From an uncultured Bacteroidota bacterium (GTDB lineage: Bacteria; Bacteroidota; Bacteroidia; Flavobacteriales; Flavobacteriaceae): a DNA stretch of 64,000 nt. Location: NCBI GenBank assembly GCA_902590705.1, contig CACIXU010000002.1:124001-188000 (forward strand). The letters run 5' to 3'. The notes under the pieces were generated by a model. The model saw nothing but the letters and a program-made list of their open reading frames with translations. It did no database searches and was not told the origin of the DNA. A program made the translations under genes and the position numbers. Shown piece by piece: positions 5,401-20,110 of the stretch (the first letter of the stretch is position 1; every line of letters begins with the position of its first letter).

Positions 5401-5401
5401 A

Positions 5402-5430
5402 GAAAAATCCCCCACGAGGGAGGGATTATG
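5402..5430 (-). terminator. Imperfect cassette-type terminator
   Basis: TCCCCC facing GGGAGGGA around an ACGA loop, flanked on the left by AAAAA (a T-run on the minus strand). It lies downstream of the gene at 5453-5941. Confidence 0.5.
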
Positions 5431-5452
5431 ATTAAAGATTCGCAACTAAAAT

Positions 5453-5941
5453 TTATTTTTGGGATGCAGCAATTTCTTCATTCAATCGTGTTGGGTCAAA
5501 TATCCAAGATGCACTTACAATTTTTCCATCAACCCATTTAAATGATACATTTACTGGGTTTGGAGTATCAGTTTCTCCAGTCCTTTTAGATGTTCCTTTC
5601 CACCAACCCCACAAATGACTCCAAACTTGATTATTATTATTTTCATCATAAAAAGTGGTTTCAACAAAATTCATTGGCATATTAATATTTTTATATAATT
5701 TATGATGCATTGAGAAACCCTCCCTTACTTGAATTTTATTGTAATTTTCTCCATTAATTGAAAGAGTAGCATCATTTGAAATGAATTTATTGAATGCTGA
5801 AAAATCATTTTCAAAATAACCTTTATTTATTTGACGAATTGCCTCCGAGTATTTGTCAGAAGTTCTGGTTGTTCCAGTAATTTCTTGAGCTAAAGAATAA
5901 AAGGAAGAGGCTAATAACAGTAATAAAAATACTTTTTTCAT
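5453..5941 (-). CDS. Secreted NTF2-like protein, third paralogue
   Basis: 162 aa with a signal peptide (MKKVFLLLLLASS, cleavage near LA-Q19) instead of a lipobox. It keeps the family landmarks: GYFENDFSAF, SMHHKLY with the His-His pair, VWSHLWGWWKGTSK and VSFKWVDGKIVSASW. It is therefore a periplasmic or secreted version of the 38-562 and 3592-4080 lipoproteins. The complete leader precedes the start. Function unknown. Confidence 0.75.
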   Translation of the reverse strand: MKKVFLLLLLASSFYSLAQEITGTTRTSDKYSEAIRQINKGYFENDFSAFNKFISNDATLSINGENYNKIQVREGFSMHHKLYKNINMPMNFVETTFYDENNNNQVWSHLWGWWKGTSKRTGETDTPNPVNVSFKWVDGKIVSASWIFDPTRLNEEIAASQK

Positions 5942-6039
5942 TTTAAATAATTTATGGTTAATAATTCGCTAATATAACAAAATCTAAAAAAGGGTTAGAA
6001 GTCCCTGAACTAAATCAAGAGGATATGCCGATGATATAA
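5942..6039. repeat. Cassette boundary 8: the most complete copy
   Basis: This boundary has all parts in order: leader (5942-5981), the AAAATCTAAAAAAGGG half, the in-frame tail E-V-P-E-L-N-Q-E-D-M-P-M-I-stop (5998-6039, core 6019-6029), then the next gene's terminator. It explains the deleted boundaries 4, 5 and 7 as losses of the middle block. Confidence 0.85.
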
Positions 6040-6063
6040 AAAACCCTCCGCTTGGGAGGGTTA
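6040..6063 (-). terminator. Cassette-type terminator of the 6076-6822 gene
   Basis: CCCTCC (6044-6049), loop GCTTG, GGAGGG (6055-6060), with AAAAA on the left, i.e. a T-run on the minus strand after the hairpin. It begins at the stop of the tail site. Confidence 0.75.
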
Positions 6064-6075
6064 AAATATTCTTCA

Positions 6076-6822
6076 TTAATATGATGATGAGGTTGAAGCT
6101 AAAATTTCATAAATAACTCTATTATCCCATCCATTTGGAAGGAATTCTCCTATTTCAGCTTTTTCTTTGTCCGTAACAATTGATGAAAACATTAAATGGT
6201 CTAAAACTTCTTCCATTGTGTTGTAACTATCCCAGAAAAATAAAGGGGGTTTATTCTGTGGAATAATTCTGGTAGCCATCCCCCAATCTGTCATTCCATA
6301 TTTTGCCATTTTATCTGAAGTAAACCTACTGGATATTTCATCTGCTTTTTTCATACATCCAGCAAGGTCATTTGGAGAACACCAATTTAATAATACAAAT
6401 TTACCTTGATTACCTGTTTGAATTTGTTTTTCAATTTTATAATAAAATTGTCCAGGGCTTTCAACATCTATGCCTTTATATATTTCGCTCCTTGTCTTAC
6501 CAAATTTTTTCTCATAAGGCCAAGTAGCTGCTTTATCTGCTAATTGTTTTGAGTTTTTATAAAGATGGACCCATATATAGTCAATTTCATTAGTTAAAGG
6601 TTCTGGGTTTCCAATACCTCTAACTTTCTTTAACAAAATCCATCCCTCAAAACTCCCATTGTTAACATTATCTTGAGCTAATTGTTTACCATAGTCAAGT
6701 TGAATAGTTTCAAATTCAGAAAGCTTGTTATCATTAACGCTTACAGGGTGGAAAACAAATAAACCCTGTTGAGCGTTTAAGCTTGTAGTAAAGATTAATA
6801 GTAATAAAAATACTTTTTTCAT
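6076..6822 (-). CDS. Secreted two-domain protein, paralogue of 2724-3476
   Basis: 248 aa, signal peptide ending near LNA-Q. As in the 2724-3476 product there are two similar halves: VNDNKLSEFETIQLDYGKQL with GWILLKKVR early, and GKFVLLNWCSPNDL with TDWGMATRII later. The layout is reminiscent of dimeric alpha/beta barrel (ABM-like) folds; no active-site residue is evident. The complete leader precedes the start. Function unknown. Confidence 0.7.
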   Translation of the reverse strand: MKKVFLLLLIFTTSLNAQQGLFVFHPVSVNDNKLSEFETIQLDYGKQLAQDNVNNGSFEGWILLKKVRGIGNPEPLTNEIDYIWVHLYKNSKQLADKAATWPYEKKFGKTRSEIYKGIDVESPGQFYYKIEKQIQTGNQGKFVLLNWCSPNDLAGCMKKADEISSRFTSDKMAKYGMTDWGMATRIIPQNKPPLFFWDSYNTMEEVLDHLMFSSIVTDKEKAEIGEFLPNGWDNRVIYEILASTSSSY

Positions 6823-6888
6823 TTTAAATAATTTCTGGTTAATAATTGCTAATATAAGAAAATCAAAAAAAGGAGGAACGAAGTAAAA
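6823..6888. repeat. Cassette boundary 9: leader only
   Basis: TTTAAATAATTTCTGGTTAA then TAATTGCTAATATAAGAAAATC on the plus strand is the leader of the gene starting at 6822. After AAAAAAAGGAGG the recombinase-tail codons cannot be recognised. Confidence 0.6.
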
Positions 6889-7662
6889 CTACAATTTAGT
6901 TGAGGACTTTCTATTAGCTACATATGCGTTGGCTTGAGCCTTGGGCAGCAAAAGTACATCAGCAATATTGACGTGATCAGGTGCCAGGACCATAAATTCT
7001 ATAAGATCTGCCACATCTTTCGCGGAGAGTGGAGTCAGTCCCTTATAAACTTGGGAAGCTTTATGTTTGTTTCCTTTAAATCGAATCTCTGAAAATTCAG
7101 TATTTACCATACCGGGATGGACTGCGCTTACTTTAATTCCCAAAGGATTTAAATCTAAACGCAGCCCTTCGGTAAATGCATCTACTGCAAATTTACTGCT
7201 ACAGTAAACACTTCCATTAGGGTAAACTTCTTTCCCTGCTATTGAACCTAAATTTATGATGTGTCCTTTTTTCCTGGAAACCATAGTTGGCAAAACAGCT
7301 TTTGTTACATAGGTTAATCCTTTGAAATTACTGTCAATCATAGCATCCCAATCGTTTAAATCAGCCTCATGAACAGGGTTAAGACCGTGGGCGTTTCCAG
7401 CATTATTAATTAAAATATCAATTGACGAAAATTTTTCGGGTAGTGAATTTATCTTTTCAAAAACTCTTTCTTTATCCCCAACATCAAAAACCAAAATATA
7501 AGATGGGGTATCCAGTTTTGACTGCAGTTCTTTCAAACGATTTTCCCTTCTTCCACATAAAATCAAGTTAGCACCTCCCTTACTTAAAACCTCTGCTGTA
7601 GCCCAACCAATTCCACTGCTGGCTCCAGTAACCATAATGTTTTTTCCTTTTAACTTTTTCAT
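6889..7662 (-). CDS. Short-chain dehydrogenase/reductase (YdfG-like)
   Basis: 257 aa, classical SDR length. The NAD(P) loop TGASSGIG is at residues 12-19, NNAG at 86-89, the catalytic Ser140 in INLGS and the YxxxK pair Tyr153/Lys157 (YCSSK). CGRRENRL after strand 2 has Arg-Arg, which favours NADPH. The overall pattern resembles YdfG-type 3-hydroxy acid/serine dehydrogenases, so reduction of a small semialdehyde or oxidation of a hydroxy acid is likely. It has no signal peptide and is one of few cytosolic proteins in the array. The short leader form precedes its start. Confidence 0.9.
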   Translation of the reverse strand: MKKLKGKNIMVTGASSGIGWATAEVLSKGGANLILCGRRENRLKELQSKLDTPSYILVFDVGDKERVFEKINSLPEKFSSIDILINNAGNAHGLNPVHEADLNDWDAMIDSNFKGLTYVTKAVLPTMVSRKKGHIINLGSIAGKEVYPNGSVYCSSKFAVDAFTEGLRLDLNPLGIKVSAVHPGMVNTEFSEIRFKGNKHKASQVYKGLTPLSAKDVADLIEFMVLAPDHVNIADVLLLPKAQANAYVANRKSSTKL

Positions 7663-7744
7663 TCTACTAAAATAACAAAACCTACAAAAGGGGGTAGAGA
7701 TGTTTAGTTTCCTAAAAGGATTCCAGAAGGTTTAATCAAAATAG
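7663..7744. repeat. Cassette boundary 10: short leader, site worn away
   Basis: CTACTAAAATAACAAAACC then TACAAAAGGGGGTAGA on the plus strand is clear. The following 50 bases no longer encode the EEDMP tail. Confidence 0.55.
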
Positions 7745-8134
7745 TTAGTTACAATTATATTCTACTACAGTTTCATCATTTTGAATGCCACCATGTGAAA
7801 TTATTGATCCAATACCACTATTTAATGCATTAAGGTAATTAGATGTAAATAATATAGTTCCAGTCCTTGGTGATCCAGCTCTATTAATACCTTTTATTGG
7901 ATTTTGATATGTACCATCATTTTCATAAAGTTGAGTTACCAAATCAATATTCTGATCTAAATAAGAATCACAAGGATTAGGCAATGAAACTAATGTTTCA
8001 AGATAATAGCTATTATTTTCAAGACCTGTAACTTGAGATAATTTGAACTCACATGGGCAAGGATCAACATTATCATCATTTGAACAAGATGAGATTATTG
8101 AAATAAATATGGATATTAGTATCAGTTTTCTCAT
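7745..8134 (-). CDS. Small lipoprotein, unknown function
   Basis: 129 aa, lipobox ISSC (Cys17). The mature protein begins SNDDNVDPCPCEF, has further Cys at PNPCDSY and at the C-terminal VEYNCN, and contains no motif I recognise. The spaced cysteines could form disulphides in the periplasm. The leader is present but with an extra stretch between it and ATG. Confidence 0.6.
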   Translation of the reverse strand: MRKLILISIFISIISSCSNDDNVDPCPCEFKLSQVTGLENNSYYLETLVSLPNPCDSYLDQNIDLVTQLYENDGTYQNPIKGINRAGSPRTGTILFTSNYLNALNSGIGSIISHGGIQNDETVVEYNCN

Positions 8135-8292
8135 GATTAATATTTTAGATATTATTACAATTTAACAAATTATGGTTTTGAATTACTAATATAACAAAAC
8201 CTACAAAAGGGGTAAACGAAAAATACTCAATTTGGGAGGGTGCTTAATAGGACTATTAATATCTAATAGTTTTTTATATGTTTTTTGCCAAA
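8135..8292. repeat. Cassette boundary 11: extended leader and decayed terminator
   Basis: ACTAATATAACAAAACCTAC then AAAAGGGGTAAACG lies at 8184-8217, followed by AAAATACTCAATTTGGGAGGG, which looks like the cassette terminator with its left arm mutated. No recombinase-tail codons remain. The rest of the gap shows nothing else. Confidence 0.5.
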
Positions 8293-9306
8293 TTAATTTC
8301 TTACACTACCAATACTATCAAAATACCATCGAACTCCAGGATTTTCTATAGTTCCATCACCTCCAAGTTCGAATCTGTTTGGTAAATCTTGTGCCATACC
8401 TTGAAACCATGGATTAGAATGTAAATGAATGTACAAACCCGGTCTTTTTTTTGCAGCATCAATTTCTTTATAATGGACCTCTTTTCCTTCATCGGAATAT
8501 ACTCCTTGGGGCATAAACTTTCTGGTCCAGCCCCCAAAAAGCTCCACATTTACTATGGGTTTATCAAGAACTCCCTGTTTCAAAAAATAATCGTAATGCC
8601 AACCGCTATGATGTCCGTTTTCAACATCCTTGGAGAAAGTATCGAATAGCAATACATCAACAAACTCTGATTTTCCAATAACTACATTCCAGACATCGTT
8701 ATAACCACCACCGCCAACAATTCGAGTTGAGTCTACTTTTTTTATTTCTTCACAAAGGCTGATAATATTTTTGGGTTTGTTAAAATCAAAGGCTTTAAAA
8801 TTTTTGTAACGACTTGAGTTCTGTTCATTAGCTATATTGATAATTATGTTACGGTATGGCTTAAGCTTTTCTGCAACAGTTCGAACGGCATTCCTGATTT
8901 CTTTTTCAGATTTGAGATTACATATTTCGGGATTCATCAATACTCGCTGATAGAAAATCCCAACGATAACTACCATATTTCGTTTGGAAGACGCCTGAAT
9001 GATTTTTTTGAGCCGTTTCCAATGATTTTTTTCAATTTCCAGGCCACCATTTTCAAAAGGGTCGATGTAACCACCGCTTGAACCTTGCAGAAAAATTGAA
9101 ATTGAATTTATTCCGGCTGCTTTGTAGTCATCGAGGTTTGAAATCAAGGAATTTGTATAATTATTTCTCTGTGTGGCACTTGCGACACGAACACCCCACA
9201 TGTCAAATGGTTTTTTATCGAGGTAGAGAGAATGGCTTTCGACTGATAAAACCTGTCCATATGAGATAAAAGGAACAGACAGTAAGACAAGAATTAGTTT
9301 TTTCAT
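8293..9306 (-). CDS. Putative secreted TIM-barrel glycoside hydrolase (GH5-like)
   Basis: 337 aa with a signal peptide (MKKLILVLLSVPFISYGQ). The acid/base position fits N-E in NIANEQNSS (Asn160-Glu161, after beta-4), and IVNVELFGG (Glu255) fits the nucleophile after beta-7; MWGVRVASA and NLDDYKAAGINSISIFL fit the first barrel strands. This is the pattern of GH5/clan GH-A glycosidases, though overall similarity is weak, and the polysaccharide cannot be predicted. Short leader before the start. The last gene of the left array. Confidence 0.6.
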   Translation of the reverse strand: MKKLILVLLSVPFISYGQVLSVESHSLYLDKKPFDMWGVRVASATQRNNYTNSLISNLDDYKAAGINSISIFLQGSSGGYIDPFENGGLEIEKNHWKRLKKIIQASSKRNMVVIVGIFYQRVLMNPEICNLKSEKEIRNAVRTVAEKLKPYRNIIINIANEQNSSRYKNFKAFDFNKPKNIISLCEEIKKVDSTRIVGGGGYNDVWNVVIGKSEFVDVLLFDTFSKDVENGHHSGWHYDYFLKQGVLDKPIVNVELFGGWTRKFMPQGVYSDEGKEVHYKEIDAAKKRPGLYIHLHSNPWFQGMAQDLPNRFELGGDGTIENPGVRWYFDSIGSVRN

Positions 9307-9379
9307 ACTTCTAAAATAACAAAACCTACAAAAGGGGATAGAAGTACCAGAACTTAAAGAGGAGGATATGCCTATTTTT
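9307..9379. repeat. Cassette boundary 12: last site of the left array
   Basis: Plus strand: CTAAAATAACAAAACC, TACAAAAGGGGATAGAAG and then in frame E-V-P-E-L-K-E-E-D-M-P-I-F (9341-9379; core 9362-9372). It is the closest copy to the recombinase end, but the usual stop is replaced: the frame runs on through the element end to a TAA at 9452-9454. Confidence 0.85.
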
Positions 9380-9388
9380 CAAAAAAAC

Positions 9389-9422
9389 GTGCCAAAAACG
9401 TGCCAAAAAGTCAATAAATTTT
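9389..9422. repeat. Element right-end repeat, left copy
   Basis: Two GTGCCAAA units 11 bases apart, followed by GTCAATAAATTT. The same arrangement occurs at 19921-19955. Both copies lie a similar distance before tRNA-Asn sequence, so this probably marks the end of an integrated element. Confidence 0.65.
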
Positions 9423-9502
9423 TGTATATTATAGTAAAATTGCTGAAAGTCTAATTTGTTTTTTTAGCTGAAGAACCAGTCGGGTAGAGCTGGTTGAGAC
9501 CA

Positions 9503-9531
9503 AGAAAAAACCCAGCAATGCTGGGCTTTTA
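9503..9531. terminator. Bidirectional terminator before the tRNA-Asn fragment
   Basis: CCCAGCA-A-TGCTGGG (9511-9525) is a perfect 7-bp stem with A-run on the left and CTTTTATT on the right, so it can stop transcription from either side. Confidence 0.75.
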
Positions 9532-9540
9532 TTGGTTGTC

Positions 9541-9671
9541 ATTGTAAGTGTAGTCTAGCGGCTACGCTTGCTCCTCCTCTTGGGCTCGAACCAAGGACCC
9601 TCTGATTAACAGTCAGATGCTGTCTTCGACTAGCTACGCTTGCTAACCACTGAGCTATAAGTACTTACAAT
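9541..9671 (-). pseudogene. tRNA-Asn fragment at an element junction (att-like)
   Basis: 9566-9621 is identical to 20032-20087, i.e. the 3' part of tRNA-Asn from the acceptor 3' strand through the GTT anticodon into the D-stem. A 21-nt insertion (9622-9642) then interrupts the D-arm, the rest (9643-9657) still resembles the D-arm, and the 5' acceptor strand is replaced, so AGGAGGA has no partner and the tRNA should not function. Perfect 9-bp inverted repeats ATTGTAAGT (9541-9549) and ACTTACAAT (9663-9671) frame the whole piece. Confidence 0.75.
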
Positions 9672-9709
9672 TTATTTTAACATAGATGTTTAATTAAATT
9701 GCCATATAA

Positions 9710-10756
9710 GTGCCAAATAATAGCCTATCCTATCCCAAAGTTTGCAAAAGAAAAGACGGTAAATATTTTATAGATTTTAAACTCGACAACAAAAGATATA
9801 GATTGTTTAGTGGTAATATTATTGGATCGTCATTAAATCCAAATACATATCCTGTAAAACTTCGATATAGTAAAACACAAGAACTTGCAAAAGCTGTTTA
9901 TGATTTTATTGTTACCAATAAATATTCACTTGCAAAAAATAATAATGCTGTTTCAAATTTTGATAGTATTATAAATCAAAAACTGTCACAACCATTATCA
10001 TTAAAATATCGCAATGAATTAAAAAGATTAGGCTGTTTATTAAGAAAGGAATTAATTAAAAAAGGTAAAATTAAATTATCATTTATTGATTCGTTATCAT
10101 TGAGGTACAATAATAATACCAGTTATAATACAACAAGACGGCACGTAAATGTTTTGGTAAACTATTTACAGCAAAACAACTTTGATATTGATCAATCGAA
10201 ATTAAAAACAAGAAAGCAACAGGAAATACTTCACAGACCTATTAAAGACATTGTATCACTTTTAAACCGTATAAAAATATTTAATGAAAATTTGCACCTA
10301 TGCTGTCTTTTGACATATGGTTGCTTATTACGTCCGCATCAAGAAATTCGATTATTAAAGTGGTCTAGTTTTAGTGATGATTTAAAGTATATTAATCTTA
10401 GTGGAGGTAATGTAAAATCGAGACGTAATAGAATAGTTCCTGTACCATCATATATTCGTGAAATACTAATCAAAGGGGATAGCAAGAATAATATATTTTC
10501 AAACAGTCAAGAGCCATACAACAAAAGCTATTTTTCAGTGCTTTGGAGACGTTTTAAAAGGGTTAATCTGGATGTTGGAACAAGGGTGACTATCTATTCA
10601 TTCAGGCACTCTGGAGCAATAGATATTTTTAAAAGAACAGGTAGTATAACCAAGCTTCAGAAAGCTATGGGACACTCATCTATAAATGTTAGTTTGACCT
10701 ATTTAAGAGGATTAGAAGTACCAGTACTTAAAGAGGAGGATATGCCTATGATTTAA
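9710..10756 (+). CDS. Tyrosine recombinase/integrase
   Basis: 348 aa, GTG start. Catalytic residues: Arg208 (GCLLRPHQEI), Lys236 (GGNVKSRRN), Arg299-His300 in IYSFRHSGA with Tyr in place of the first His (common in phage-type integrases), His322 (MGHSS) and nucleophile Tyr331 (SLTYLRG). Residues about 80-165 are a SAM-like core-binding domain. It probably inserts the element at tRNA-Asn, and may also move cassettes, because its last 14-18 codons (10697-10756) are the sequence repeated between cargo genes. Its stop overlaps the stop of the convergent first cargo gene by two bases. It lacks the extra alpha helix region expected of class 1-like integron integrases as far as I can see. Confidence 0.92.
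   Translation: MPNNSLSYPKVCKRKDGKYFIDFKLDNKRYRLFSGNIIGSSLNPNTYPVKLRYSKTQELAKAVYDFIVTNKYSLAKNNNAVSNFDSIINQKLSQPLSLKYRNELKRLGCLLRKELIKKGKIKLSFIDSLSLRYNNNTSYNTTRRHVNVLVNYLQQNNFDIDQSKLKTRKQQEILHRPIKDIVSLLNRIKIFNENLHLCCLLTYGCLLRPHQEIRLLKWSSFSDDLKYINLSGGNVKSRRNRIVPVPSYIREILIKGDSKNNIFSNSQEPYNKSYFSVLWRRFKRVNLDVGTRVTIYSFRHSGAIDIFKRTGSITKLQKAMGHSSINVSLTYLRGLEVPVLKEEDMPMI
10697..10756 (+). repeat. Recombinase 3' end: the parental copy of the boundary site
   Basis: From the Thr-Tyr331 codons (ACCTAT) to the stop. Aligns with boundary copies: ACCTATTTAAGAGGATTAGA here against ACCTACAAAAGGGGATAGA at 9326, then GAAGTACCAG and GAGGATATGCC (10736-10746). Six in-frame copies exist in the window (1386, 4137, 5998, 9341, 10715, 11298). 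Confidence 0.85.
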
Positions 10757-11262
10757 TTATTATTTCTCGGTTTGGAGAATTGATTCATATAATCAATTTT
10801 TCCATTTATAAATCTGAATGTTTCCATCCAATTGACCCCTGCTGATGTTCCATCTTGTGATACAATATTCGCGTTGTCCCATAAAAGTACCCACTCGTCT
10901 CCATTTTCATCTAAAAGTGCAAGATTTACTGCAATCTGATAATCCTCAACTTCAACAGAAGAATAGCTCTCCATATATTTTACACACTCATCTTTCCCCT
11001 CTAATCTTGAACCATCTTCAAGAGCAAAAACAACATTATCTGAAAGGTAACTTCCAGCCTTTTCATAATCTTTATTGATTATGGATTGAATCATTTCTTG
11101 GACTTTGACTACTAATTCTGTATTTCCAATTTCAAAGTCATCAAGATAAGTTGCCTCATAAATGTATTTTACATCGTTTGTTGTTTCTTGAGATTTATTT
11201 TTTTGAGGCTGGCTGCAAGAAATAAAAAGTACAAAAGTCAATAATATAAATAGTTTTTTCAT
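10753..11262 (-). CDS. NTF2-like (SnoaL-type) lipoprotein, first cassette next to the recombinase
   Basis: 169 aa from ATG 11262; lipobox FISC (Cys16). NKDYEKAGSYLSDNVVFAL, the short turn GSRLEGKDECVKYM and the terminal strand WMETFRFINGKIDYMNQF are typical of SnoaL/DUF4440 NTF2-like proteins. It is a more distant relative of the three NTF2-like genes in the left array. The frame extends upstream, but MKKLFILL starts the signal. The stop TAA (10753-10755 on the plus strand as TTA) overlaps the recombinase stop. Function unknown. Confidence 0.75.
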   Translation of the reverse strand: MKKLFILLTFVLFISCSQPQKNKSQETTNDVKYIYEATYLDDFEIGNTELVVKVQEMIQSIINKDYEKAGSYLSDNVVFALEDGSRLEGKDECVKYMESYSSVEVEDYQIAVNLALLDENGDEWVLLWDNANIVSQDGTSAGVNWMETFRFINGKIDYMNQFSKPRNNN

Positions 11263-11342
11263 ATAAGTTAATATAAATTTAATAGTGAACAATTTACGAA
11301 TTATTCCCTGAGCTTAGTGAAGAGGATATGCCTGTTATTTAA
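11263..11342. repeat. Cassette boundary 13: intact recombinase-tail site
   Basis: 11298-11342 reads E-L-F-P-E-L-S-E-E-D-M-P-V-I-stop in frame, core GAGGATATGCC at 11322-11332. The stop TAA (11340-11342) overlaps the minus-strand stop of the next gene (11339-11341) with exactly the same one-base offset as at the recombinase end. The leader part is diverged (AACAATTTACGAATTA). Confidence 0.8.
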
Positions 11343-14300
11343 TTTACTGTTATTGTCCCTACCATACCTGCGTGTAAAGAACATATGTAGTAGTAAGTAC
11401 CTGCTTGAGTGGGTGTCCACGAAACAGTTCCATTAGTAGTCCCATTATTTGTAACTCCACTGATAGTATTTGCAGTGCCAGTTCCCTGTACTGTTTTTAG
11501 ATAAAATGGATGTCCAGGAGCATTTACCGCAAAGTTTACAGTATCTCCAACTTTTATTGTTACTGAAGGATCATTTCCTGAAACATTTCCGTTTCTATCT
11601 GTACCACTTAAGGTATAATCTGATGCGTTACTTGCAGTTACATTAATAGTGAATGAAGAGGGACAGGTTCCCCAAACTGGTTTGTTTGTATTTGTGAGCG
11701 CAGAATTTCTTGAAAAATCCTCAGGTGTTGAGGTTGAATTGGCAATTTGAACATTAAGGACACACCAACTTGATAAGTCTTGATTAAATGCTGTTGCATC
11801 CTTAAACATCAATTGCATTTTTAATACATTTGATGTATCCCAGCTCCCGATATCTTGGTTAAAGGTGGGATTTGATAGAAACATTTGTCCCATATCCGTT
11901 ACATTGGAGGTATTCCATCCACCAATATCCTGATTAAAAGAATTAGCATAAAAAAACAACCCCCCCATATTTGTGACATTTGAGACATTCCATCCACCAA
12001 TATTTTGATTAAAAGAGATAGCTGATGCAAACATATAGAACATATTTGTCACTTTTGAGACATCCCAAGAGCTGATTTTACCGTTAAATGCTCTTGCATT
12101 ATTAAACGCTCTATACATATTAGTAACTTTTGAAGTATCCCAATTCATATAATTATTTGAAAATGAAGCAGGTTCTCCATTATTGAAATTTCTTGCCTCA
12201 TTAAACATATTACTCATTGTATGAACATTAGAGGTATCCCAGAAACCAATATATGAGTTGAAAGAATTATTGTCTTTAAATAAATCGTTCATATTTGTAA
12301 CCTTAGTTGTACATAAATTCACATTTCCGTTTGCTATCTGACCTGCTATACTTGAGTTATCAACTACTGTATAAAGCGTTCCACTAATTGTAGCTGTATC
12401 ACCAACACTTGCATTAGGACATTTACAAGTACCATTTTCGAAATAGATTGAGGACGATGTTGAGGTAGTTGTTCCAGAATTATTTCCTCCACCACCTGTA
12501 GAAGTAGTAGTTCCTGTATTACCTCCACCACCAGTAGAGGTAGTTGTTCCAGTATTACCTCCACCTCCTGTAGGTGTTGTAGTTCCAGTTGTTGAGGTAG
12601 TAGTCCCGGTAGTTGATGTTGTTGTCCCTGAATTATTTCCTCCTCCTCCTGTAGAGGTAGTCGTTCCAGTATTTGTAGATGTGCTTGTACCTGTGGTATT
12701 GGTTGTAGTCGTTGAGGTAGTGGTACCGGTAGTTGATGTTGTTGTTGAAGATGTAGAAGCTATAACCTGTATTGCTCCACTAATAGAAGCAGAACATCCA
12801 TTTGTGTCTGAAACAGTTATTGTGTAAGGGTATGTACCAATTGGAATAATTGATTGGGAAATAATATTGTGATAATTAGGGTCGCCTAACTGAAGTCCTG
12901 GAGGTGCAGTATTTCTAATACGTAATTCACGAATATTGCTCTGTGGAGTAACATCCAAAACCTCAATTGGGCTATTTACAAGATTAGTTTGAAAACTATT
13001 AGCATTAGATATATAACGAACATCAAGGTTTTTACCTTGTTCAATAATCACAGTACTTCCATCAGTGGACAATCTCGCAGGATATGTTAATTGATCAAAC
13101 CTAATAAATGTTGAACAATTATTTGTCGATGTTGTTGTCCCAGTATTACTTCCTCCTCCACCTGTTGAACTAGTTGTACCAGTATTACCTCCTCCACCTG
13201 AAGGTGTTGCAGTTCCAGTAGTTGAGGTGGTTGTGTCTGTTGTAGGAGAATTACACTCTGATTCTGGTTTTACCCTGGTTATAAAAGAAATGATGCCTTC
13301 TCCATATTGAATTGTATGGTGAACTGAACTAACAGTCGTATCGGTAATTACTCCTGTGTATATATAACTAAGTTTGCCGCTACCTCCCCAAACTGGATCA
13401 CTAATATCACAATCTCCAGCATCGTTGTCGCTATTAATTGCAGAATTATCTACGTTGCATTTGTATTCAATTCCATAATAATTTGAATACGTCCCAGCAT
13501 TTTGACTTGTAACGACTGAACCATCTTTTAAAGTAATTCGAACTGGTAGAAGTCTAGGAAGTGGAGCTAGATTTCCGGTGCCTAAGGGAGTATTTATTAG
13601 GGAATCAAAACCTCTTAGCTTATTGAACTGGAGATTATATGATTGTATATTTTCACCCAGACACACATTTTGCTCGATTCGTCTATTTCCTCCTGAAATA
13701 CTTTCACCATCAATTATAGTTGCATTACAAACATTGGAGCTTATTTGTAAACTTAAATTATCCTTAGCACCTGATGAAACTGAGGTAATCGATAAATTTA
13801 CCGTTTTTAGTCCTGAGTCAACAAGATTTAAGGCTATGTTAGCCTGTATACTTATGTCATTATAGTCTTGATCTGATGAGGTTCCACTTCTATCTTCAAA
13901 ACTTAATTTTGCTGTATGTAATGTATCACCTCTTGCAGAATCACTGTTTTGGGGATCTATTGAAAAAGTAAACCATAGCTCATTTTCAGTATTTTTAGTA
14001 ATTTCTCCAATGTTGGATCCATTGATAAGAGTCTCACTACAGTCATCATATATCATACTAAACTTCACAAATTCACCTTGGAGGTCATTGGTGAATGTAA
14101 AAACTGCGGTGTATTCATTTTTTACACTTGAAAACATTTTCCCGTTTACCCTATCTAAAAATGATTGACCACTCAATGTGGAAGTGCTTGATCCTGTCTC
14201 ACTTGCTACGGTTGATGTAATTGTTCCAGCGAAAGACAGGAAACTATTTTTAAAAATATCTGAAATCTGTTCTGTTGTGGATGATGCAGTTACAGCCTCA

Positions 14301-15205
14301 AAAGGAGGAATGATCAATCCATTTTCAGCACGTTGAGATATTGATTTAGTCATTGCCCCTGAAATATTTAGTTGGCCACTTATATCAGATATCTCTGATT
14401 CGTTTTTTGGTGGAGTCTTATTAGCTGGCAATGAAGCCATTTTCATACTAATATTTGTAGGGGAGGCAAAATTAATATTTGTCATCAATGCAAAATCTCC
14501 AATTACAATTGAGCTAGGACTAATAGGGGTTATTTTAGTAAATATCTTCGATTGAACAACACCATTAATAAGCGTTGTCATTAGAACATTTAAATTGATG
14601 TCTACAGCCATTCTTATCACCTTAATATCTTTTGCAGAAGAATCTCCACCTATTTCAAACTCCCAATCTCCGACAAGATTTTTAGCTACTTCATAGTCAA
14701 ATTTTGCACTCACATCTTTATTTCCATCAAGTGTTATTGTTTTTGGATTAGTTGTATCACTAGGATCATTATCCCAATAAAAGAAAGAATATTGATCAGC
14801 AGGGACTGCAGTTAACTCAACTGAAGCTCCGTGAGTAAAGCTTGTCCCACCTCCAACAACTTGTTTTTGAACCTCTCCATTTCCTGTGACATTGATATTA
14901 ATGTTATAGGCGGTCTTTTCAAAGTTTGCAACCAGGTTTGTGTTCTGATCTGGATTAAGTGTAAGTGGATTATTGGAATAGGTTTGGTTTGTACTTGAAT
15001 CTGTCCAGCTAACAAATGTATATCCTGTCTGTGGAGTTGCACTGAATGTAACTGCTGCACCAACTGCGTATGATCCGGCTTTGAAATCAATACTCCCCAT
15101 TGAGGAATCAGCAACAGATGCATTTACAACAACAGTAGGATCATCTTCTTTTTTACAAGTAGATAGAACCAATAGAATAGATAAAACTAGAAAAAACCTT
15201 TTCAT
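11339..15205 (-). CDS. Large surface lipoprotein: InlB-type repeats, BspA/DUF285 repeats, C-terminal cupredoxin
   Basis: 1288 aa, lipobox LSTC (Cys17). Residues about 28-170 hold two divergent InlB B-repeats (GYTFVSWTDS; QYSFFYWDND). The middle is unassigned. Two Thr/Ser/Gly-rich linkers (about 653-692 and 815-918) precede a DUF285/BspA-like run (about 970-1180) with repeated DTSNVTNM and FNQDIGGW units. The last about 100 residues form a plastocyanin-like copper domain with VKVGDTV-like strand, His in APGHPFY and the C-H-M ligand loop YYICSLHAGM. Probably displayed on the cell surface, binding copper or transferring electrons while the repeats bind partners. By far the largest cargo gene. 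Confidence 0.85.
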   Translation of the reverse strand: MKRFFLVLSILLVLSTCKKEDDPTVVVNASVADSSMGSIDFKAGSYAVGAAVTFSATPQTGYTFVSWTDSSTNQTYSNNPLTLNPDQNTNLVANFEKTAYNININVTGNGEVQKQVVGGGTSFTHGASVELTAVPADQYSFFYWDNDPSDTTNPKTITLDGNKDVSAKFDYEVAKNLVGDWEFEIGGDSSAKDIKVIRMAVDINLNVLMTTLINGVVQSKIFTKITPISPSSIVIGDFALMTNINFASPTNISMKMASLPANKTPPKNESEISDISGQLNISGAMTKSISQRAENGLIIPPFEAVTASSTTEQISDIFKNSFLSFAGTITSTVASETGSSTSTLSGQSFLDRVNGKMFSSVKNEYTAVFTFTNDLQGEFVKFSMIYDDCSETLINGSNIGEITKNTENELWFTFSIDPQNSDSARGDTLHTAKLSFEDRSGTSSDQDYNDISIQANIALNLVDSGLKTVNLSITSVSSGAKDNLSLQISSNVCNATIIDGESISGGNRRIEQNVCLGENIQSYNLQFNKLRGFDSLINTPLGTGNLAPLPRLLPVRITLKDGSVVTSQNAGTYSNYYGIEYKCNVDNSAINSDNDAGDCDISDPVWGGSGKLSYIYTGVITDTTVSSVHHTIQYGEGIISFITRVKPESECNSPTTDTTTSTTGTATPSGGGGNTGTTSSTGGGGSNTGTTTSTNNCSTFIRFDQLTYPARLSTDGSTVIIEQGKNLDVRYISNANSFQTNLVNSPIEVLDVTPQSNIRELRIRNTAPPGLQLGDPNYHNIISQSIIPIGTYPYTITVSDTNGCSASISGAIQVIASTSSTTTSTTGTTTSTTTTNTTGTSTSTNTGTTTSTGGGGNNSGTTTSTTGTTTSTTGTTTPTGGGGNTGTTTSTGGGGNTGTTTSTGGGGNNSGTTTSTSSSIYFENGTCKCPNASVGDTATISGTLYTVVDNSSIAGQIANGNVNLCTTKVTNMNDLFKDNNSFNSYIGFWDTSNVHTMSNMFNEARNFNNGEPASFSNNYMNWDTSKVTNMYRAFNNARAFNGKISSWDVSKVTNMFYMFASAISFNQNIGGWNVSNVTNMGGLFFYANSFNQDIGGWNTSNVTDMGQMFLSNPTFNQDIGSWDTSNVLKMQLMFKDATAFNQDLSSWCVLNVQIANSTSTPEDFSRNSALTNTNKPVWGTCPSSFTINVTASNASDYTLSGTDRNGNVSGNDPSVTIKVGDTVNFAVNAPGHPFYLKTVQGTGTANTISGVTNNGTTNGTVSWTPTQAGTYYYICSLHAGMVGTITVN
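12450..12765 (-). repeat. Low-complexity Thr/Gly coding repeats
   Basis: Tandem copies of a unit encoding GTTTSTGGGGN and its variants within the surface lipoprotein, about 8 units, with a smaller block at about 13130-13245. Near-identical units at DNA level imply slippage or recombination, so copy number may vary between strains. They form flexible linkers before the DUF285 region. Confidence 0.8.
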
Positions 15206-15239
15206 CGGGTTTACGGCTAATTAATTACAATATAATGAA
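15206..15239 (-). promoter_or_regulatory. Diverged cassette leader
   Basis: Minus strand TTCATTATATTGTAATTAATTAGCC upstream of ATG 15205 (given in parts: TTCATTATATTG, TAATTAATTAGCC). It matches the leader before 18890 (TTCATTATATTGTAAT) and is related to the standard leader TTATATTAGTAATTATTAACC. Confidence 0.45.
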
Positions 15240-15947
15240 TCAATTCTTACTTATTTCAAAATCAATTAATTTAGTCGTTGCATCAAGAAGGTCTAGATAA
15301 TTTCTGTACATTGAAATAAATGTTTCTATCCAAATTCTATACTCCGAATAATAAAATAGCACTAATTCTGATTTATAATAATTTTTGTTTATTGTAAAAT
15401 TTTCAATCTTACGTTCAGGTATTAAATATATTAGATTCCTTTTATCTACTTTCCTCTCAGTTACAACAATAAATTGCGATAAATCTCTTCCAAAATCCAT
15501 TCCAAAATCATCCATTACTCTGTCACCAAATTCCTTTCTCCTATTTAAATTATCGTAAATGATTAATAGTTTTGATCTCAAATCATCAGAACTAATTAAT
15601 TCCATACTACCCGTGTTAAGTAAACGTAGAAATGGTCCCATTTGAGGAAAAAATGAAACTATACCATTTTGTTTTAAACTTGAAAAATTTTTTACCAGTT
15701 CTTCCTGACTCAATTTTACTTTATTATTAAAATCATTAATTAAAATTCCAGCTGAGTTAAAACATTTTTTTTGTACATCAATGACCTCTTTTAATTGATC
15801 TTTATCAATAAGAATAGATTCCTTTAATTCTTTTAGAATAACATTCTTCTGATTTAATCTTGACTTTTTTTCAAGATAAGAATCTATACTCAGCGAGAGC
15901 AAAACACTCACGATAATCAAAGAGCTTTCTAGTAAATATCTTTTCAT
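15240..15947 (-). CDS. DUF6090-like membrane-anchored protein
   Basis: 235 aa. One N-terminal membrane helix (about 7-21, LESSLIIVSVLLSLSID), then a charged helical domain. It shares the pattern S-F-F-P-Q-x-G and NxGSMELI / LLSSNGLENI with the gene at 17107-17817, so these two are close paralogues and the 648-1337 product is more distant. No catalytic residues seen. Function unknown. Confidence 0.7.
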   Translation of the reverse strand: MKRYLLESSLIIVSVLLSLSIDSYLEKKSRLNQKNVILKELKESILIDKDQLKEVIDVQKKCFNSAGILINDFNNKVKLSQEELVKNFSSLKQNGIVSFFPQMGPFLRLLNTGSMELISSDDLRSKLLIIYDNLNRRKEFGDRVMDDFGMDFGRDLSQFIVVTERKVDKRNLIYLIPERKIENFTINKNYYKSELVLFYYSEYRIWIETFISMYRNYLDLLDATTKLIDFEISKN

Positions 15948-16041
15948 CTTAAAATTAATTTAAACTGTCAATATACTGAATCTCTAAAAATCTTTTCTAA
16001 TACTATTTTGACTAGTAACTGAATAATTTTAATATATTTTA

Positions 16042-16075
16042 TATTTTAGTTGACCTTAACCAAAAATTATTTCAA
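16042..16075 (+). promoter_or_regulatory. Cassette leader in plus orientation
   Basis: CCTTAACCAAAAATTATTTC then AA and ATG 16076. This matches the minus-strand consensus TTAACCATAAATTATTTAAA-ATG, showing that the leader travels with the gene rather than with the array strand. Confidence 0.6.
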
Positions 16076-17092
16076 ATGAAAAAAATCTTCTTCTTATCTA
16101 TAATTTTGTTTATAGTAGGCTGTAACAGCAAAGAAAAAAAACCAAATTCAAATATTGAGATATATGATGAATCAATAATCTCTGTAATTGATGAAATGGC
16201 AGAATTTGAAATATTAGCAGACTCTATTAGTTTGCCTGAAGGGCCTCTTTGGGATGAAAAATCTAATTCACTTTTATTTGTTGATGTAATTAATAATAAT
16301 GTTTTAAAATGGAATGAGTCAGAAGGTGTTTCAAACTATATTATGCCTAGCGGAAATACTGGATATGCTCCTAACCTAGGCAAAGGTGTGCTTGGGGCTA
16401 ACGGAATGGGATTTGATGCTCAGGGAAATTTAGTTTTATGCCAACACGGCGATAGAAGATTAGCAATCATTGAAAATGAATCTAACCTTAATCCTAGTTT
16501 CACCACACTAATTGATAATTATGAAGGAAAAAAATTAAATAGTCCCAATGACCTTGTTTTTTCCAAAACCGGTGAAATTTATTTTACTGATCCTGCTTTT
16601 GGTTTTTTTGATCTTAATACTTTCGAATTCGTAGAAACACCGCTAAGAGAATTAGACTTTTTCGGTGTCTATAAGTTTGACACTAAAAGTAAAACTTTGT
16701 CATTAGTTAGTGACTCTGTTGATCTTCCTAACGGGATAGGACTATCCCCAGATGAAAAAACCCTATATGTCAATAAAATGGGTATGCTCGATCAAAATCC
16801 AAAAGTTTTAAAAATAAATCTAGAAGATTTATCTTCAGAAGTGCTATTCGATGGTAAAGAATTATCTGGTAAATATGAAGGTAATTTTGATGGAATGGTC
16901 ATTCATTCCTCAGGCAATATATTTACCTCAGGCCCTGGGGGGCTTTTAATTATTTCACCACAGGGGAAGTTACTGGCTAAAATTAATTTTGGTCATATTA
17001 CAAACTGTACCTTTGATACGAAAGAAGAATTTCTCTATGTAACAGGATTTTTAAATAACCCAAAAGTATTTAGATTAAAATTGAAGGCATAG
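16076..17092 (+). CDS. SMP-30/gluconolactonase-like lipoprotein
   Basis: 338 aa, lipobox IVGC (Cys16). Beta-propeller of the SMP-30/gluconolactonase/LRE type: metal-ligand Glu in SLPEGPLWDE, GANGMGFDAQGNL, Asn in NSPNDLVFSKTGEIYFTDP and LPNGIGLSPDEKTLYVN, then Asp in NFDGMVIHSSGNIF. Such enzymes open sugar lactones with a divalent metal; a periplasmic anchored form could act on sugar oxidation products. Plus-strand gene with the cassette leader. Confidence 0.88.
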   Translation: MKKIFFLSIILFIVGCNSKEKKPNSNIEIYDESIISVIDEMAEFEILADSISLPEGPLWDEKSNSLLFVDVINNNVLKWNESEGVSNYIMPSGNTGYAPNLGKGVLGANGMGFDAQGNLVLCQHGDRRLAIIENESNLNPSFTTLIDNYEGKKLNSPNDLVFSKTGEIYFTDPAFGFFDLNTFEFVETPLRELDFFGVYKFDTKSKTLSLVSDSVDLPNGIGLSPDEKTLYVNKMGMLDQNPKVLKINLEDLSSEVLFDGKELSGKYEGNFDGMVIHSSGNIFTSGPGGLLIISPQGKLLAKINFGHITNCTFDTKEEFLYVTGFLNNPKVFRLKLKA

Positions 17093-17106
17093 CTGCTTTA
17101 ATAGCT

Positions 17107-17817
17107 TTATGATTTTAATTCATCTTCAATCAAAATAGTAATTTCATCAAGAGCAATATTTACGTTTTTTAGTCCAGACTTATATTGGTTTACGTATAAA
17201 ATAACTTGATTATAAAAATTTAAAACATCTTTAGATTTGTAATAATTGTTCCCTATAAAATAATTTTCTATTTCAAGAATTGTTATGGGTAAATCTAGCG
17301 ATAGGTTTCTCTTAGTTTTTTCAGATGGAATAACTATAATTTCATTTGACAGCGACATATAAGACTTCCACCTCATTTCATCCAAAATTGGGTCAGCAGC
17401 AGCTGTTCTCATCAATAAGGATTCATAAACATAAATAAGTTTTTTTTTAAGCGTATCGTCTTTAATATTTTCTAATCCGTTAGACGAAAGCAACTGATTA
17501 TATATCCCATATTGTGGGAAAAAAGAAATATTCATTGTTCTTAAATCAGAAAATTTTTCAGCTATTATAGCTTTGTCTAATTTCGCTTTACTGCCTATAT
17601 GATCTTTGAGTAAAATTCTTGATGATTCTAAAGTAAGGTCTAAAGTTTTCTGAACATTTTTGAGTTGATCAATATCCTCCCTAATGTTAGTTAGTAATTG
17701 ATTTAAAAGCTTATTTTTTAGGTTGATCTCCGAAAGTCGCTCTCTATAGGATTCAAGTCCAAATGCTCCCAAAACACTTAAAAAAATTAACAACCCCTCA
17801 ATTAAGTATTTTTTCAT
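17107..17817 (-). CDS. DUF6090-like membrane-anchored protein
   Basis: 236 aa. N-terminal helix about residues 6-20 (IEGLLIFLSVLGAFGLESY), then helices with MNISFFPQYGIYNQLLSSNG, the same local pattern as the 15240-15947 product. It ends 15 bases from the convergent gluconolactonase-like gene. Function unknown. Confidence 0.7.
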   Translation of the reverse strand: MKKYLIEGLLIFLSVLGAFGLESYRERLSEINLKNKLLNQLLTNIREDIDQLKNVQKTLDLTLESSRILLKDHIGSKAKLDKAIIAEKFSDLRTMNISFFPQYGIYNQLLSSNGLENIKDDTLKKKLIYVYESLLMRTAAADPILDEMRWKSYMSLSNEIIVIPSEKTKRNLSLDLPITILEIENYFIGNNYYKSKDVLNFYNQVILYVNQYKSGLKNVNIALDEITILIEDELKS

Positions 17818-17867
17818 TTTTTAAATATTATGTTTAACTATTACTAATCCTAATATAATAAAACCTA
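17818..17867. repeat. Cassette boundary 14: leader fused directly to a gene stop
   Basis: Plus strand ACTAATCCTAATATAATAAAACCTA: the AAAACCTA at the start of the boundary consensus runs straight into the CTA that is the stop (17865-17867) of the next minus-strand gene. The whole tail site is missing, as if the join had been made at ACCTA. Confidence 0.6.
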
Positions 17868-18890
17868 ATTACAGCTTATTTCAAATTCAGTCCAATCCTT
17901 ACCATTTGTGTGGGAGTTTGGAAAGTAAAAACACTTCTTTGTTCCATTGGCAAAGTTGAGTTTCTTTCTAAAAGCGCTTGGAACGTGAGCGCCTGTAGGG
18001 AGTATTTGATGATCATAATCAAAAATAACATCAACCCTAACATTAATATCTGCATTGTCAGCTGCAGCCCAATCCCTTACCTGACCTTCTAATTGCGCCC
18101 ACTCATATCTGTTTAAATAATAGTGCTGTAAAACGCAATTTAAAAATGAGAATGTTGCAGTTAGATTTGCAACTGTATCATCAAACGATGCAGCTGGTGC
18201 TAAATGCCCTTTGTCCCAATCATTATTTGCATAGTCATCTATATTGGATGTAAATACACTATCAACTGAAAAAAAATCATATCCTGAGCGACTAACATTC
18301 GATGGTACATTTCTAACTGTATACTCCAACCAATTAGGCTGCTCATAAATCTCATTATATGATACTTTGAAAATACTTCCTTGAATTATATAATCAGTTC
18401 TATAGTTTCTTCCATTGAATAGTTTTTTGGGGATAGCATTTATTGAATCAAGTTTGTTTTGAAGTACTACAAAGGATTCATATAATCTATTGTATTTTTC
18501 CTGTTGAGAGGAATCATTTTTAAGTGTTTCTAATTCACTCGAAAGGTTTGATAATTGAGAAGATAAATTATTACTCTCAAGCGATACGGCAATTAATTCT
18601 CCTCTAATATTTTTTATGCTATCACTTAAAATTTCGAACTTTTGGTTTGTAAGATTATTGGTATTGTCAATTAATGTATTTATCGTGGAAAGTAAATTAT
18701 CATAGTCTTGTGACTGTTTAAGATTTGAGTCATTTATAGTGGAACTTAAACTATCAATTTGTTTTATTAGAGAATCTATTTCTTGTTGTTGAGATTGATT
18801 CACTTGCTTCAAAGCATTTACATCATCCTCAAAATTTTTACAGGAGAAAATAAAAGTAATTAATATGAAAAATGAAATTGTGTTTTTCAT
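17865..18890 (-). CDS. Lipoprotein DNA/RNA non-specific endonuclease with coiled coil
   Basis: 341 aa from ATG 18890, lipobox IFSC (Cys17). Residues about 20-150 are heptad-like coiled coil (QQQEIDSLIKQIDSLSS). The C-terminal domain has the NUC/EndA signature as DKGHLAPA (catalytic His229; the usual DRGH has Arg where this has Lys), then NCVLQHYYLNRYEWAQLE, with the metal-binding Asn region. Likely a surface-tethered nuclease that degrades extracellular nucleic acid for nutrients or defence. The frame extends 12 codons upstream, but MKNTISFF begins the signal. Confidence 0.85.
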   Translation of the reverse strand: MKNTISFFILITFIFSCKNFEDDVNALKQVNQSQQQEIDSLIKQIDSLSSTINDSNLKQSQDYDNLLSTINTLIDNTNNLTNQKFEILSDSIKNIRGELIAVSLESNNLSSQLSNLSSELETLKNDSSQQEKYNRLYESFVVLQNKLDSINAIPKKLFNGRNYRTDYIIQGSIFKVSYNEIYEQPNWLEYTVRNVPSNVSRSGYDFFSVDSVFTSNIDDYANNDWDKGHLAPAASFDDTVANLTATFSFLNCVLQHYYLNRYEWAQLEGQVRDWAAADNADINVRVDVIFDYDHQILPTGAHVPSAFRKKLNFANGTKKCFYFPNSHTNGKDWTEFEISCN

Positions 18891-18925
18891 TGGACTGGTT
18901 AATATTACAATATAATGAATTATCA
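18891..18925 (-). promoter_or_regulatory. Diverged cassette leader
   Basis: Minus strand ATTCATTATATTGTAAT then ATTAACCAGTCCA and ATG 18890. Same form as before 15205, related to the consensus leader. Confidence 0.5.
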
Positions 18926-18960
18926 ATAATGTTAATAAGCTCTAATACAATAGGTTGATT

Positions 18961-19173
18961 ATTAAAAATAAAGTATATAACTTCGTATAACATTACAGTA
19001 ATACGCCATACTATATTGTTTTTTTAAGGTTTCTTTAAAACCTTTTTACTATAAAATTTCTATAAAATTTATTACAAATATTTCTGCAATAACATACTAC
19101 ATTATATAGTATCAATACAGACTATTTACGTTTTATAATTAAATACGTTATATAATAAAGTAACATATAGTAT
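18961..19173. promoter_or_regulatory. AT-rich control region with dyads before the RPKG gene
   Basis: ATTACAGTAAT (18992-19002) is an 11-bp palindrome. ATATAGTAT occurs at 19104-19112 and 19165-19173 and inverted at 19008-19016; the last copy covers the start codon of the gene at 19172. This arrangement suits an autoregulated operator or a recombination-accessory site. Confidence 0.4.
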
Positions 19174-19387
19174 GAGACCAAAAGGAGTGCCAAATAAACT
19201 AACATCTGCAGTAAAATATAAACTAGACGCAATTATAGATCAAACTATGGAGTCTATTAATGTTGACACACTTACAAATGCTGAAAAAATAAAATTAATA
19301 GAAGTCTGTTTACGATACGTAATGCCACGTAAGACTACTGATTCAGTTCCACTGCCCAATGACATACAAATACAAATCGTCAAATAG
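19172..19387 (+). CDS. Small RPKG-motif protein of mobile elements
   Basis: 71 aa. Starts MRPKGVPNKLT, the (G)RPKGxxNK N-terminus typical of small phage and mobile-element proteins, often AT-hook-like DNA binders, followed by a helical segment (AVKYKLDAIIDQTMESI). It could bind the ATATAGTAT repeats in front of its own gene, one of which overlaps the ATG. The family function is not established. Confidence 0.65.
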   Translation: MRPKGVPNKLTSAVKYKLDAIIDQTMESINVDTLTNAEKIKLIEVCLRYVMPRKTTDSVPLPNDIQIQIVK

Positions 19388-19394
19388 TAATTTT

Positions 19395-19431
19395 TATTAT
19401 ATTGGAGATTATTAACCATAAATTATTTAAA
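19395..19431 (+). promoter_or_regulatory. Cassette leader in plus orientation
   Basis: TATTATATTGGAGATTATTA then ACCATAAATTATTTAAA directly before ATG 19432. It is nearly identical to the minus-strand leaders in the left array, so this gene is an inverted unit. Confidence 0.75.
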
Positions 19432-19893
19432 ATGAAGAATATCATATTCTTAATATTACTTCCACTCTTAGTTTTTTCTCAACAGCCAAGGAATATGAAA
19501 GGAGTGAAAAAAGCTGATGCTAGAATTATTGATTTACTTGAAAATTATGGAAAAGCTTATGAATATGAGGATTTTGAAAGTATCGCAAGTTACTTTGACT
19601 ATCCAACTACTTTCAAAGCTCCGATTGGAAATACAATTTTAAAAGACAAAGAAGAATTAATCAAATTTTATAAGGTAGCGAGAAGTGCCGAAGTAGTTGG
19701 TGATGACTATTGGTATTCACTTTATAAAAAAATTAAACCCATATGGATAAATAAAGATTTATGCATTATGGATGCATTTTACAACAGATATGGCAAAAAA
19801 TATAACTTAGTTCACGAAGGGAGAGCTCTTTATATGTTCAGAAAAACAGAAAATGGCTGGAAAATTTTTGATGTAACTATAGTCCCCAATTAA
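19432..19893 (+). CDS. Secreted NTF2-like protein
   Basis: 153 aa from ATG 19432, signal peptide MKNIIFLILLPLLVFS-Q. LLENYGKAYEYEDFESIASYFDYPTTF and the final HEGRALYMFRKTENGWKIFDVTIVP are typical of DUF4440/SnoaL-like NTF2 folds. It is the fifth NTF2-like gene of the region. The frame is open 10 codons upstream, but that stretch is the leader itself. Function unknown. Confidence 0.75.
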   Translation: MKNIIFLILLPLLVFSQQPRNMKGVKKADARIIDLLENYGKAYEYEDFESIASYFDYPTTFKAPIGNTILKDKEELIKFYKVARSAEVVGDDYWYSLYKKIKPIWINKDLCIMDAFYNRYGKKYNLVHEGRALYMFRKTENGWKIFDVTIVPN

Positions 19894-19920
19894 TAATGGA
19901 TTTTATAGTAAATAAGATCA

Positions 19921-19955
19921 GTGCCAAATGAGTGCCAAAAAATTGACTAAATTTA
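19921..19955. repeat. Element right-end repeat, right copy
   Basis: GTGCCAAATGAGTGCCAAAA followed by AATTGACTAAATTTA. Aligns with 9389-9422. The recombinase gene also begins within an AGTGCCAAAT string (9709-9718), which may be chance. Confidence 0.65.
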
Positions 19956-19973
19956 TCTTAAACTAAATTGTAA

Positions 19974-20004
19974 GAAAAAACCCCTACTTAACGTAAGGGT
20001 TTAA
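19974..20004. terminator. Terminator before tRNA-Asn
   Basis: AAAAAA, then CCCCTAC-TTAAC-GTAAGGG with one mismatch in a 7-bp stem, then TTTAATTTT. It occupies the same place relative to tRNA-Asn sequence as the 9511-9525 hairpin does in the left copy. Confidence 0.6.
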
Positions 20005-20037
20005 TTTTACTGGGTTTGTAAGCGGTTACTTGCTTGC

Positions 20038-20110
20038 TCCTCCTCTTGGGCTCGAACCAAGGACCCTCTGATTAACAGTCAGATGCTCTAACCAACTGAG
20101 CTAAGGAGGA
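20038..20110 (-). tRNA. tRNA-Asn(GUU)
   Basis: 73 nt, full cloverleaf on the minus strand: acceptor TCCTCCT/AGGAGGA, D-stem GCTC/GAGC, anticodon arm TCTGA-CTGTTAA-TCAGA with anticodon GTT, T-stem CTTGG/CCAAG with TTCGAGC loop. CCA is not encoded. It is the intact attachment target of the element to its left; the 3' 50 nt are duplicated at 9572-9621. Confidence 0.96.

Follow-up and report, generated by a model that had tools for sequence, protein, structure and literature searches.

A tRNA-Asn element of an uncultured marine Bacteroidota bacterium with an integron-like cassette array and a probable insertion site in the 3' end of the element's recombinase gene

We analysed a 64,000-nucleotide stretch of the genome of an uncultured marine Bacteroidota bacterium (1.93 Mb, 83% complete, 59 contigs; G000:C2:124001-188000, hereafter the window), in which two elements lie in tandem at a tRNA-Asn gene. 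Judged by its relatives, the genome is one of the Flavobacteriales. The one next to the tRNA, element 2 (9566-20087), encodes a tyrosine recombinase, and is probably a tRNA-integrating element with an integron-like cassette array, for which the 3' end of the recombinase gene itself serves as insertion site. The evidence is read from DNA comparison: copies of the end of this gene (the tail) lie between cargo genes, in a consistent orientation and downstream of recombinases, the recombinase family is linked to tRNA genes, and cassettes common to different species end at these sites. Relatives of the recombinase or of the tail were taken from congeners, marine metagenome-assembled genomes and single-cell genomes.

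The end of the recombinase gene recurs between cargo genes

About 20 final codons of the recombinase gene, from the catalytic Tyr codon to the stop, recur between the cargo genes of both elements. Repeat finding grouped the 3' end of the gene (10704-10760) with copies at 1375, 4126, 5987, 9330 and 11290, all at cargo-gene boundaries (family D6). Within window 1-20200, a position-specific scoring matrix (PSSM) of the last 32 bases, GAACTTAAAGAAGAGGATATGCCTATGATTTA, gave six matches with scores of 37-47; the maximum across 50 shuffles was 8.0. The copies in the arrays are conserved leftwards to about -28, beside the Tyr331 codon, and the site is therefore about 61 bp long, encoding YLRGLEVxELKEEDMPMI-stop. 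The recombinase gene, the tail copies and the repeats that resemble the left half of the site are:

9710..10756, plus strand, tyrosine recombinase of 348 amino acids (PF00589, E=5.9e-11)
10696..10756, plus strand, attI-like cassette site within the recombinase gene, from just ahead of the codon for the catalytic Tyr through the stop; its left half and tail recur in arrays
11310..11342, plus strand, tail copy closing the first cassette of element 2 (PSSM 38.9)
9350..9381, plus strand, last tail copy of element 1 (PSSM 40.3)
6007..6039, plus strand, tail copy of element 1 (PSSM 39.3)
4146..4178, plus strand, tail copy of element 1 (PSSM 39.6)
1395..1427, plus strand, tail copy of element 1 (PSSM 37.3)
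1..8, plus strand, leftmost (seventh) tail copy, straddling the window edge and starting at C2:123977, 24 bases outside (score 32.0)
591, 1358, 2260, 3505, 4109, 5370, 5971, 6851, 7669, 8188 and 9313 (591..9342), plus strand, eleven copies of a left-half/leader repeat (family D3)
2669, weaker left-half/leader copy

A further left-half/leader copy, at 1720, falls within a gene and is probably due to chance. Element 1 boundaries that have no tail, some of which carry a terminator hairpin instead, could have lost it by erosion or be junctions of another type.

The recombinase is predicted to have an arm-binding-like N-terminal domain, a core-binding domain and a catalytic domain with Tyr331, followed by the C-terminal tail. 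The catalytic set R208, K236, R299, H300, H322 and Y331 is invariant in 13 homologues, and the first His of the HxxR motif is replaced, by Tyr296 in the window recombinase. The structure model (predicted local distance difference test, pLDDT, 85) has a three-domain fold with a beta-rich N-terminal domain, and a pLDDT below 50 for tail residues 339-348; its best PDB folds are IntI (2a3v), Tn1549 Int (6en2) and lambda Int (1z1b), with template modelling scores of about 0.5.

The pattern extends well beyond the window, with 191 tail sites across 57 loci of marine Flavobacteriales/Bacteroidota. Shuffled DNA gave no match for the first set of 123 sites, and in an order-wide sample the pattern was present in 9 of 395 genomes and a reversed-pattern control in 0 of 395. 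On the Polaribacter chromosome OX044355.1, a single array next to tRNA-Met accounts for 14 of the 20 sites; as this chromosome is a single contig, the finding speaks against binning artefacts. An ordinary tRNA-targeting island, with unrelated intergenic repeats and an unremarkable recombinase 3' end, would have the same tRNA repeat, recombinase, cargo and terminators, all of which are island-typical; this explanation is nevertheless contradicted by the tail-site matches, the reversed-pattern control and the distribution, since what recurs between the genes, at 57 loci of many genomes, is the 3' end of the recombinase gene itself, and we give this explanation hardly any credence.

The window's own genome has other recombinase-less arrays (L092 9275-11094 and L040 11904), one of them about 2.6 kb from a tRNA-Arg. 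An origin from a phage, plasmid or viral contig was considered and set aside, as no close relatives were found among these; six distant relatives on viral contigs (24-37%) have no tail site.

Detached tails vary in a coding-like way

In the coding frame, 46% of the codon differences among detached array tails are synonymous; the other two frames give 18% and 4%, and 17% is expected for random changes. These tails share ancestry with recombinase genes, and the synonymous variation therefore shows their origin, not present selection. Codon identity at identical residues is 0.41 in the body of the recombinase gene and 0.54-0.57 over the site, which mildly suggests that the DNA itself is under constraint. 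The distance between recombinase tails at the DNA level does not follow that between bodies (rho -0.11, and 0.12-0.47 for neighbouring segments; 14 sequences, 33 bp); in the pair L027 and L029, the tails differ by 3% and the bodies by 43%. In the L030 recombinase (3407-4456), family sequence is lost directly after YLRG. This gene directly borders a large polysaccharide-utilisation cluster (sigma/FecR/SusC/SusD/sulfatase), as if the site had served to connect the two.

We also considered homologous recombination or gene conversion, acting on short conserved sequences with no site-specific enzyme involved, as the means by which the tail repeats spread. The sites and recombinase ends do share 60-160 bp at 80-90% identity, but this explanation does not account for the consistent orientation of the sites, their location downstream of the recombinase, their overlap with the catalytic codon or the coding-like variation of detached tails, and we regard it as quite improbable.

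Array geometry and moving cassettes

Of 131 pairs of adjacent sites, 125 point the same way and 6 are opposed. Among same-orientation sites at most 5 kb from a recombinase, 21 are downstream and 4 upstream, the latter all belonging to the left tandem elements of the window and of locus L046. Segments from site to site (n=123) have a median length of 746 bp, about one gene each, and the cassette genes mostly read towards the recombinase (68:16). Two complete tails lie back to back, 41 bp apart, at L134 10421-10493, perhaps as a cassette-less insertion or an excision scar.

Several comparisons point to the exchange of single cassettes. Between one site and the next, segments L046 8664-9231 and L064 9472-10039 match at 99.4%; their flanks are 54% and 51% identical (random pairs, mean 41%, standard deviation 17). 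Loci L045 and L049 have the recombinase end and first cassette in common (97%), and identity falls to 41% just past the second site. A cassette of about 336 bp is found in L052, L059, L035 and, in the window's own genome, L092; between L052 and L059, it is preceded by a recombinase-like end in one genome and by another cassette in the other. Window 2354-2664 also has a counterpart in L059 (92.6%), which was left out of the boundary evidence as the homology is inverted and stops short of the sites. Judged from these comparisons, cassette mobility is well supported.

The main rival explanation is serial accretion, in which whole elements with their own recombinases were inserted successively into the 3' end of a resident recombinase gene, and later deletions left tail-separated cargo. 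Recombinase remnants of 40-130 amino acids do occur inside arrays L134, L052, L053, L054 and L141, and tandem elements exist. An apparent gene fusion in L054 (6286), considered as a second recombinase, was dropped as there is no such open reading frame (ORF) there. Most boundaries, however, consist of the Tyr-to-stop segment or less, and similarity fades near the same place (-28), unlike random deletion ends; in addition, the median segment of 746 bp holds about one gene, and one-gene segments move between species without recombinase remnants. We therefore consider serial accretion unlikely as the explanation for the arrays, and think that it probably also occurs, because tandem elements and the longer remnants are seen.

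Proposed mechanism

For the preferred reading, cassette capture at the 3' end of the recombinase gene, we propose the following sequence of events. Element 2 would have inserted at the 3' part of tRNA-Asn by means of its own lambda-type tyrosine recombinase, with GTGCCAAA copies at both ends as arm-type sites. A cassette circle (tail, gene, left half) would then recombine with the site inside the recombinase gene, such that the body of the gene stays and the incoming cassette supplies a new tail (ELKEEDMPMI-stop), the old tail shifting downstream to become the next cassette boundary. The newest cassette would thus adjoin the recombinase, whose C-terminal tail would be swapped with each insertion. 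An exchange point between tail positions +4 and +11 would be the simplest account of the junction mismatches, which come from few pairs. Element 1 (C2:123472 to window 9565) is probably a like array that has no recombinase and kept its right end, with arms and tRNA copy, in tandem. We infer four of these steps from sequence: the cassette circle as intermediate, the catalytic role of this recombinase, the route by tail exchange and the crossover at about +4 to +11. In known tyrosine recombinases (Cre, lambda Int, XerD), the residues that follow the catalytic tyrosine pack against a neighbouring subunit, so tail exchange may affect enzyme activity.

Several points weigh against this proposal. 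The element 1 boundaries at 2260, 3505, 5370, 6851, 7669 and 8188 have the left half and leader with no tail, and by-eye inspection for inverted-arm symmetry in the core site gave nothing convincing, the symmetry being weak. The comparison of tail and body distances is small in both sequences and length. L046/L064 is the only pair with more than 99% identity inside and both flanks unrelated, and its two members differ at tail base +20. Some arrays hold recombinase fragments longer than the tail, as expected from accretion and decay of whole elements. No excision, circle or fully empty site was seen, all the evidence being comparative, and the tRNA and cassette reactions may or may not share one enzyme.

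The tandem locus at tRNA-Asn

The attachment repeats and element ends are as follows:

9566..9621, minus strand, 3' part of tRNA-Asn, left attachment repeat, exact 56-bp match to 20032-20087
20036..20110, minus strand, complete tRNA-Asn(gtt) (ARAGORN), the 3' part of which, 20032-20087, is the right attachment repeat
9389..9407, plus strand, doubled GTGCCAAA, arm-type-like, right end of element 1
19921..19939, plus strand, doubled GTGCCAAA, arm-type-like, right end of element 2
9710..9717, plus strand, single GTGCCAAA, left end of element 2, which makes the recombinase start codon, likewise in L028 and L044

An earlier sequence-only reading of this DNA had described the exact 56-bp direct repeat of the tRNA-Asn 3' part, a terminator and a GTGCCAAA-type end repeat ahead of each copy, a cassette array to the left of the first copy and a recombinase to its right, and had concluded that two elements lie in tandem. 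Repeat finding returned the same repeat at 9566-9621 and 20032-20087, each copy is preceded by a hairpin with a T run, and GTGCCAAA is present in pairs at 11 bp spacing (9389/9400 and 19921/19932); the array and the PF00589 recombinase are where they had been placed. The tandem layout is thus supported, and it recurs in L046, also at tRNA-Asn, and probably in L141. In L141, three tRNA-Ala(ggc) copies (640-714, 12454-12524 and 17783-17853), of which at least two are identical, seemingly bound two tandem elements; all are called complete, and some elements therefore appear to carry a whole tRNA gene.

ARAGORN finds a single complete tRNA-Asn in the region. Beyond the 56 bp the left copy is degenerate, with a D-arm-like remnant at about 9643-9658, 'gctaaccactgagcta', reaching about 9660, and it is therefore a pseudo-tRNA and not a clean half. 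The start codon of the recombinase is the GTG at 9710, and an extra GTGCCAAA copy occurs at 19187, within a small ORF. The presence of GTGCCAAA at both ends, together with the beta-rich N-terminal domain in the model, would fit arm-type binding as in lambda Int. At the other loci checked, all 16 of 16 family recombinases have tRNA-Asn, -Met, -Ala or -Arg sequence at most 420 bp upstream of the start, and, judged from these positions, the linkage of the family to tRNA genes exceeds chance.

Two expectations about the left element did not hold. Its recombinase had been placed outside the window; none is present in the 40 kb leftwards, there is no second one in the 83%-complete assembly, and the only other recombinase trace there is one tail fragment on another contig. 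A tRNA-Asn fragment was likewise looked for in these 40 kb and not found. The left block instead adjoins a host gene (a DUF819-like permease) at C2:123472. Different inserts in congeners G006 and G019 have their left edge at this very position, and in G003 the edge is close to it. That the left element is the older one is supported by the loss of its recombinase and left end, and opposed by G006, in which tRNA-Asn is adjoined by the element 2 right end and that of element 1 is absent.

Four congeners, with flanks 81-96% identical, have differing content between the same two flanks at tRNA-Asn: about 20.6 kb in the window, 6.7 kb in G003, 5.4 kb in G006 (no recombinase; four tails, one of them weak) and 2.1 kb in G019. 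The latter, with two genes and no recombinase, is the smallest interval, and no fully empty tRNA-Asn site was found among the congeners.

Cargo of the two elements

The cargo comprises:

38..9306, minus strand for 11 of about 13 small genes, element 1 cargo (SnoaL-like, GNAT, beta-lactamase-fold, SDR, GH5-like, unknowns)
10753..11292, minus strand, SnoaL-like gene of the first element 2 cassette, which runs antiparallel to the recombinase gene and shares 4 bases with the 3' end of the latter
11339..19893, remaining element 2 cargo (DUF285/plastocyanin-like protein of 1288 amino acids, DUF6090-like, SMP-30-like, NS-endonuclease-like, NTF2-like)

The 1288-amino-acid protein (11339-15205) is of a surface type and combines DUF285 repeats and linkers of low complexity with a plastocyanin-like C-terminus; pieces of it recur in arrays L027, L035 and L052. 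A small DUF6090-like protein (15240-15947, weak match) resembles several DUF6090-type proteins (PF19578) of the Polaribacter array L134 (4536-11888); from their sequences, such proteins appear to be a recurrent cassette family. Reading the cargo as a defence island was set aside, as PADLOC gave weak matches only, of coiled-coil or GNAT type.

Comparison with known systems

Tycheposons, found in Prochlorococcus and other marine taxa, are tRNA-linked and have a tyrosine recombinase and cargo genes (PMC10872708). Compared by this second-hand description, tRNA, tyrosine recombinase, cargo and marine bacteria are all common to the present elements, which differ in having a cassette array and a repeated recombinase 3' end, neither of which is part of the description consulted (PMC10872708).

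With integrases of the lambda, Tn1549 and CTnDOT type and with tRNA islands, the elements share a three-domain recombinase, arm-type-like end repeats and attachment in the 3' part of a tRNA; the difference is that here the cargo consists of cassettes bounded by the end of the integrase gene itself. In archaeal SSV-type elements, the recombination site also overlaps the integrase coding sequence, and integration splits the gene, whereas in the present elements a new coding end would take the place of the old one and leave the gene open.

To our knowledge, no well-known platform other than integrons builds arrays of single genes through site-specific recombination. The likeness to them lies in a recombinase beside a single-gene cassette array on one side, same-orientation sites, cassettes common to different species and recombinase-less arrays resembling CALINs. 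An attI-like site adjoins the recombinase and the same-orientation array, though it lies inside the gene, at the 3' end of the recombinase coding sequence. The recombinase is not an IntI, scoring 18.9 bits against TIGR02249 (integrase_gron; cut-off 265), and attC sites were looked for and rejected, as the fold z-scores over eight strands were +0.9 to -1.75 and the GTTRRRY core is absent from the site. The genes are moreover mostly antiparallel (68:16), each with its own upstream leader, and the array rides a tRNA-integrating element.

No description of such cassettes was found in the open literature, the search not extending to preprints and subscription journals. On balance, we lean slightly towards a second, independently evolved integron-like capture system, built on a lambda-type tRNA integrase, with the 3' end of the recombinase gene as site and each cassette replacing the C-terminal tail. 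If true, the capturing enzyme could be tuned or switched off by its cassettes, and an unrelated integron-type system in abundant marine Bacteroidota would help to explain single-gene exchange at tRNA hotspots in small-genome ocean bacteria; the ELKEEDMPMI-stop tail is a clear sequence mark for finding such cassettes in genomes or metagenomes. As a tRNA element, the system is ordinary and tycheposon-like, and as a cassette collector it is integron-like but lacks the defining integron features that were tested.

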